From: Rhodanobacter sp. B04
GTDB taxonomy: Bacteria > Pseudomonadota > Gammaproteobacteria > Xanthomonadales > Rhodanobacteraceae
Direction: 5' to 3'
Assembly: GCF_002001125.1 (NCBI RefSeq)
Contig: NZ_MUNV01000005.1
Location: 434,001 to 498,000 of the forward strand
Length of the DNA stretch: 64,000 nt
A program made the position numbers and the translations under genes. Below are positions 61,449-61,973 of the stretch, piece after piece (the first letter of the stretch is position 1; each line of letters begins with the position of its first letter). Under the pieces are notes generated by a model that was given only the letters and a program-made list of their open reading frames with translations, did not search any database and was not told the DNA's origin.

Positions 61449-61739
61449 TTACTTCTTGGCGGTCTTGGTGGCCTTCACCACCTTGGCCGGCGCAGCTTTC
61501 TTGGCGGCCGGCTTCTTGGCGGCAACCTTCTTCGCAGCAACCTTCTTTACGGCAACTTTCTTGGCGGCCGCCGGCTTCTTGGCAGCAGCTTTCTTGGCGG
61601 CCGGCTTCTTGGCGGCAACCTTCTTCACGGCAGCTTTCTTGGCGGCCGGCTTCTTGGCGGCAACCTTCTTCACGGTGGCTTTCTTGGCGGCCTTCTTGGC
61701 GGCCGGTTTCTTTGCGGCGGATTTCTTGGCAGTGGCCAT
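61449..61739 (-). repeat. DNA repeats encoding the AAKK/VKK tail
   Basis: The H1-like tail is encoded by imperfect tandem units built from GCGGCCGGCTTCTTGGCGGC and AACCTTCTTC (plus-strand view). Units vary in order and length, and such arrays tend to change copy number between strains. Confidence 0.7.
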
Positions 61740-61973
61740 GGTTCGTCTCAGCTCCTCATCAGTTGGCAGTGGTTGCCCAGTAAAAGCGTGCAGGAACGCC
61801 TCAACCAACAAGTCGCTGTTGGTAGCGTGCCGAAGATTGTTCACTTGACGGTGGGTGCGCAAATCGGAAAGCCGCCGCAAAACATGCAGCGGAATCGAGA
61901 CAGTGATCTTGCGTACTGCATTGGCCTTTTCACCGTGTTCGATATACGGCTTGATGAATTTCGTTGTCGCCAT
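61449..61973 (-). CDS. metJ: MetJ methionine repressor fused to a histone H1-like lysine-rich tail
   Basis: A 174-residue protein. Residues 1-77 are MetJ: YIEHGEKANAVRKITVSIP, with the beta-strand that reads DNA (KITVSIP), then HRQVNNLRHATNSDLLVEAF and LHAFTGQPLPTDEELRR, the ribbon-helix-helix dimer and SAM-binding region. The final part of ordinary MetJ (about 105 residues in E. coli) is missing; instead residues 79-174 are lysine/alanine/proline/valine repeats (AAKKPAAKKA, VKKVAAKK) as in histone H1-like and AlgP-type DNA-binding tails. There is no stop or frameshift between the parts. Start ATG 61973 has GGGGA nine bases upstream. M79 (ATG 61739), with GAGGAG twelve bases before it, could start a free H1-like protein. 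Confidence 0.9.
   Translation of the reverse strand: MATTKFIKPYIEHGEKANAVRKITVSIPLHVLRRLSDLRTHRQVNNLRHATNSDLLVEAFLHAFTGQPLPTDEELRRTMATAKKSAAKKPAAKKAAKKATVKKVAAKKPAAKKAAVKKVAAKKPAAKKAAAKKPAAAKKVAVKKVAAKKVAAKKPAAKKAAPAKVVKATKTAKK

Follow-up and report, generated by a model that had tools for sequence, protein, structure and literature searches.

The methionine repressor MetJ is a textbook regulator, usually a stand-alone protein of about 105 residues with its own C-terminal helix. For the E. coli protein, a simulation study described Glu39 and Arg42 as the main SAM partners and reported a coupling to helix C (PMC2775130). According to a review, SAM raises the DNA affinity of MetJ mainly through its positive charge (PMC1282579). 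H1-like tails are known from other bacterial proteins. AlgP and PhaF, for instance, combine a helical or other N-terminal part with a disordered, lysine/alanine-rich KPAA tail, and DNA binding in vitro is described for KPAA peptides and for a fragment of the tail of AlgP (PMC9239181). Both lack a MetJ domain, and the word MetJ does not occur in the available text of that article. As for genes with two products, CheA and CcmM are described as examples in which an in-frame internal start yields a shorter second protein with a role of its own (PMC11005335).

The gene considered here lies in a stretch of 64,000 nucleotides from Rhodanobacter sp. B04 (positions 434,001 to 498,000 of contig NZ_MUNV01000005.1), hereafter called the window. 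It shares with E. coli MetJ (PF01340; PDB 1cma, 1cmc) the domain and MET-box sites of the same kind, but it differs in its polylysine-alanine tail, which forms the C-terminus, in a predicted internal start at the joint and, in this genome, in changed residues at positions 39 and 42. Like AlgP and PhaF, it carries a lysine/alanine-rich tail behind a folded part. Unlike in CheA and CcmM, the internal start is predicted from conservation only, and its product would be a tail without any N-terminal domain. No account of a MetJ-tail fusion was found in the open-access literature. The initial annotation of this DNA recognised the fusion and overlooked the candidate start codon and the frozen block at the joint, which are new. 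The coordinates are given in Table 1.

Table 1. Features of the fusion gene and of the methionine genes in the window
Feature	Coordinates	Strand	Basis or remark
Fusion frame, MetJ and H1-like tail, 174 aa	61449..61973	minus	Start ATG 61973, stop codon 61449-61451
MetJ domain, residues 1-78	61740..61973	minus	PF01340 and NCBIfam MetJ above cut-off; 1cma by sequence and model
H1-like tail, residues 79-174; predicted 96-aa free protein from internal ATG	61449..61739	minus	Composition
Internal ATG, codon 79	61737..61739	minus	Conservation across family genomes
GAGGAG, Shine-Dalgarno-like, 12 nt 5' of internal ATG	61752..61757	minus	Codon conservation, duplex energy
48-nt block nearly frozen at synonymous sites	61740..61787	minus	Codon counts; control is tail-less MetJ
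MET-box-like operator upstream of fusion gene	62120..62151		Equivalent site in 147/171 genomes
MET-box array upstream of metX-like gene	22109..22140		Array in 18/18 same-genus loci
metX-like gene	20841-21872	minus	Pfam; precedes metB-like gene
metB-like gene	19616-20803		Pfam; after metX-like gene

The fusion gene and its two parts

The initial annotation proposed that MetJ, over roughly the first 77 codons, is fused in frame to an H1-like tail near 61739, and that the usual C-terminus of MetJ is absent. All of this agrees with the present results. A single frame runs through both parts, with the joint at 61739/61740, and the protein is well beyond the stand-alone length of MetJ. Residues 1-78 scored 120.3 bits against PF01340 (cut-off 25), and the fusion scored 125.1 bits against the NCBIfam MetJ profile NF003622 (cut-off 110). 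The E. coli repressor chain in 1cma aligned with residues 5-89 (E=1.4e-30), and the alignment is weak after the joint. A structure predicted for residues 1-100 from 36 diverse rows had a mean pLDDT of 77.8. Foldseek matched this model to 1cma (E=4.2e-8, TM 0.70, 70% identity), which supports the presence of the MetJ ribbon-helix-helix fold. An earlier model built from 22 close rows was of poor quality and gave no fold match at all. In the DNA-reading strand, K22, T24, V25 and P28 are invariant across 36 aligned rows. The genes upstream, gcvH and a gcvT gene, are read in the same direction as the fusion gene.

The tail contains 37 Lys among its 96 residues, no Arg and no Asp or Glu. Its matches to the HC2 profiles stayed under the cut-offs (PF07382, 34.8 vs 40; NF038053, 36.1 vs 80; NF038052, 23.5 vs 135). 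The composition is kept in the 166 genomes with a complete tail, where the mean K+R fraction is 0.41 and 162 tails are free of acidic residues; on this composition, the tail is predicted to bind DNA. Its length ranges from 34 to 309 aa in these genomes. The longest tails, of the same composition, are found in one g31 genome (309 aa, L046) and one g43 genome (206 aa, L066), and the shortest, down to 34 aa, in g27 (L031). A second lysine-rich tail is encoded in the genome of the window. It belongs to a stand-alone H1-like protein (L306, contig C5 31997-32542, 225-aa open frame), in which an acidic stretch precedes the AAKK-rich tail.

Two other origins of the joint were rejected. A sequencing error, which the initial annotation had named as a case against the fusion, or a frameshift is ruled out by the conservation of the frame among the family genomes. 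A programmed frameshift that ends MetJ early was also dismissed. Use of ACC (15 of 156 genomes) or GAC (39 of 156) removes the minus-one stops, CTT (7/156) removes the plus-one stop, and no slippery site was seen when the codon table was inspected by eye.

Distribution of fused and tail-less MetJ

Among 60 relatives, MetJ was found in 35 of the 36 genomes of the genus, the window's own included, and in two of the 24 other genomes of the order. The one genome of the genus without a match is 79% complete. The family sample gave MetJ in 146/147 genomes and in 26/26 genera. Of 299 genomes sampled across the order, 96 carried MetJ, 76 of them in the same family and 20 in three other families, and in the class sample only three of 274, the window's genome counted among them; in these two samples, genomes without a match were counted only.

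The joint was read in 171 genomes of the family. In 170 of them the frame reaches a downstream stop, always with a tail, the shortest extending 42 residues past the MetJ core; in the remaining one (G010) it leaves the contig end inside the tail. The whole sampled family thus carries a version of the repressor with a built-in polycation. In contrast, no tail was present in 15 MetJ copies read from two neighbouring families of the same order (13 in f9, two in f12). For the other five copies outside the family, the open frames measure 84 to 93 aa, by length too short for MetJ plus a tail of the size found in the family. In the copies read, the tail was seen in a single family of Xanthomonadales and not throughout the order.

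When named genomes were scanned for exact copies of the frozen block, at least 118 stretches were obtained, 80 of which were listed. Among the matches listed, the block continues the MetJ frame in 80/80; a lysine-rich tail then follows in 76, and four end at the edge of the contig or stretch. The named carriers among these matches are Rhodanobacter, Dyella, Luteibacter, Frateuria, Tahibacter, Dokdonella, Mizugakiibacter and Oleiagrimonas, all of them Rhodanobacteraceae. Other listed matches come from metagenome bins that carry broader names, in some cases Lysobacteraceae. We infer that the family of the fusion carriers (f1) is Rhodanobacteraceae.

In the two f12 genomes, a tail-less MetJ of 79 aa starts on the last bases of a secretin-like gene (L061 1023-1262 and L062 1052-1291, minus strand), presumably a gspD-like secretin of type II or III. 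A glycosyltransferase-like gene follows, an odd location for a methionine repressor.

Predicted internal start and frozen block at the joint

At codon 79, 169 of 170 genomes have ATG and the remaining one has GTG. The start codon is retained even where the preceding codon has been changed or deleted. Synonymous changes were counted by the Fitch method in 156 genomes; the tree was derived from codons further upstream in the gene. At codons -8 to +7, counted from the end of the MetJ core, the mean was 4.4 changes per codon vs 19.4 in the 58 codons before. Within the block, ACT, GGG and CCA are each kept in 154/156 genomes and AGA in 149/149, and the two codons of GAGGAG in 155/155 and 156/156. 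The block is unevenly fixed, with 17 changes at Leu +4 and 16 at Thr +7. Tail-less MetJ, with the same domain in the same order of bacteria, served as a control. Its corresponding eight codons vary freely, with a heterozygosity of 0.59 in 13 f9 genomes vs 0.07 in 25 fused genera. The codon table, the Fitch counts and this comparison cover 156 of the 171 family genomes. In the other 15, many of them g43, the frame begins fewer than 74 codons ahead of where the MetJ core ends or is cut by the contig end; their blocks are included in the ATG/GTG count. There is also one natural loss: in one g25 genome, the block, GAGGAG, AGA and ATG are gone together. As this is the sole genome of its genus in the set, the loss counts as a single event.

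The duplex of the internal Shine-Dalgarno sequence is stronger than that of the main start in 167 of the 168 genomes for which duplex energies were calculated (means -8.43 and -4.70 kcal/mol); 166 of these have the complete tails whose composition is given above. Within open frames of at least 250 aa in the window, 1/579 internal Met codons has such a core upstream, a rough background, as many of these frames are not genes. The distance from the Shine-Dalgarno sequence to the ATG is 12 nt in most genomes and 9 nt where one codon is missing. A spacing of 12 nt is longer than the usual optimum. The start codon and the Shine-Dalgarno sequence are conserved beyond the needs of the protein sequence. 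With tail-less MetJ as a matched control and one natural loss, the comparative signs of an internal start at the joint are strong.

The preferred reading, to which we assign a probability of about two in three, is that one gene encodes two proteins, the MetJ-tail fusion and a free H1-like tail made from the internal start. Ribosomes would start at the ATG of the joint and yield the tail as a free protein besides the fusion. The initial annotation had regarded a short MetJ and a separate H1-like protein as a case against the fusion. The fusion frame stands, and a free tail may exist alongside it; that case may be half true because of the conserved internal start and the frozen block upstream of it.

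Initiation accounts for the ATG, for GAGGAG and for the A-rich spacer, but not for the 30 bases before GAGGAG. This excess of about 30 nt beyond the Shine-Dalgarno sequence speaks for an unlikely alternative, in which the block serves chiefly as a regulatory element of RNA or DNA (a small-RNA target, a protein site or a hairpin over the Shine-Dalgarno sequence) that acts on the whole gene or on the internal start. A hairpin between GCUUUU and AGGAGC would account for these bases. Most haplotypes are predicted to form it, and all six pairs are preserved in 154/171 genomes, but this mostly reflects a lack of variation. Covariation does not support the hairpin, as no compensatory change was seen and variants in its left arm mostly break pairs; it is retained as one form of this alternative. 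The window's own stretch folds no better than shuffles (z 0.10). An Rfam search of the block gave nothing near a gathering score, and no second copy of the block was found in the genome at up to three mismatches. Taken alone, such an element would also leave the start codon unexplained. The Shine-Dalgarno sequence has a predicted mean unpaired value of 0.26 vs 0.35 in synonymous shuffles, i.e., it is if anything slightly tighter. Being no looser than in these shuffles, it makes the block unlike an opened ribosome site. A consensus scan for an internal sigma-70 promoter gave no hit.

Somewhat less probable still is that only the fusion is made, the block being a stretch of rare codons that slows ribosomes and lets MetJ fold before the tail emerges. 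The block codons AGA, CCA, ACT and GGG do look uncommon for the gene, and the frame is never broken. For a pause, however, any slow codons would suffice, yet other codons uncommon in this gene do not take the place of CCA (154/156) and AGA (149/149), and the common codon CTG is kept as well. The near-invariant ATG and GAGGAG also remain without explanation under a pause.

MET boxes, residues implicated in SAM contact and proposed roles

Two adjacent MET boxes (at least 11/16), lying 140-195 bases before the MetJ start, were detected in 147 of 171 genomes vs 17 of 3420 shuffles. The loci L171 and L172 were skipped, their genomes being counted via other loci, and the shuffles were Markov resamplings. 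At least one genome in 25 of the 26 genera has such a site. It is absent in all 11 g29 genomes (e.g., L076) and in nine of the 11 g36 genomes (e.g., L069), i.e., present in 0/11 and 2/11. Not every genome has a strong box: the one upstream of the window's own fusion gene scores 11/16, equal to the best of 20 shuffles. The three-box array upstream of metX scores 18 to 21 of 24 in all same-genus loci; the best of 50 shuffles of each reached 14 to 16. For the window's copy at 22109, from which the pattern itself was derived, 100 shuffles gave no match. These conserved operators suggest that the DNA-reading part still works. Since MET boxes lie upstream of both the fusion gene and metX, the MetJ part probably still serves the methionine regulon.

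It is very unlikely that the protein no longer takes part in methionine regulation and serves solely as a nucleoid protein, its MetJ domain a dimerising remnant: changed residues at positions 39 and 42 in some genera, the missing operators in g29 and most of g36 and a survey of methionine regulation in Proteobacteria, in which none of the four Xanthomonadales genomes is listed with a MetJ regulon (PMC4239095), would fit, but the DNA-reading strand is invariant and the MET sites at the gene and at metX are widely conserved. Given that survey, the regulon of Rhodanobacteraceae may be undescribed.

In the genome of the window, E. coli positions 39 and 42 are occupied by Leu and His. Both positions are changed in six of 26 genera (g1, g22, g34, g36, g38 and g40). 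In g25 only position 42 is changed, and the other genera keep both residues, single genomes excepted. The helix C stretch of E. coli MetJ is, as we take it, the part that the tail replaces here. Together with Leu and His at these positions, this makes the description of the protein in the initial annotation as a SAM-switched repressor doubtful. In the genera in which both residues are changed, the tail, with its permanent positive charge, may in part take over the role of the charge contributed by SAM. With a built-in polycation and, in some genera, changes in residues implicated in SAM contact, the charge idea is directly testable.

According to the two-protein reading, the fusion would repress its own promoter and metX by binding to their MET boxes. 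The tail would add non-specific DNA affinity to the fusion, making its binding less dependent on SAM than that of the E. coli repressor. As a free protein, the tail would act as a small DNA-binding protein, the level of which would follow the shared promoter and hence the sulfur and methionine state. A more far-reaching version is rather doubtful. In it, a methionine repressor and a chromatin protein come from a single gene, the permanent positive charge of the tail replaces that of SAM, and the 48-nt element regulates the internal start, thereby setting how much H1-like protein is made free and how much as fused repressor and tying the coating of the chromosome to sulfur status. Counted against the two-protein reading are the 12-nt spacing, the excess of about 30 nt in the block, the Shine-Dalgarno sequence that is not loosened, the limitation of the g25 loss to a single genome and the losses of the MET site in g29 and g36.

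Genome-wide, two-box MET sites are no commoner than the reversed pattern (359 and 357 vs 477 and 477). Three-box sites with up to three mismatches are near the control level (13 and 23 vs 12 and 7). Therefore, only sites conserved in relatives carry weight. The best three-box match of the genome, without mismatches (L373, contig C25 137880-137903), is located downstream of a gene resembling those of glycine-zipper lipoproteins, and no methionine gene was seen next to it. Two other three-box sites of this genome (L380 and L381, contigs C25 and C27), of a kind that is near the control level, adjoin a gene for a solute-binding protein and a flavodoxin/FAD gene. The latter looks like a sulfite reductase gene, and both names are our reading. 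These two sites hint at a wider sulfur regulon.
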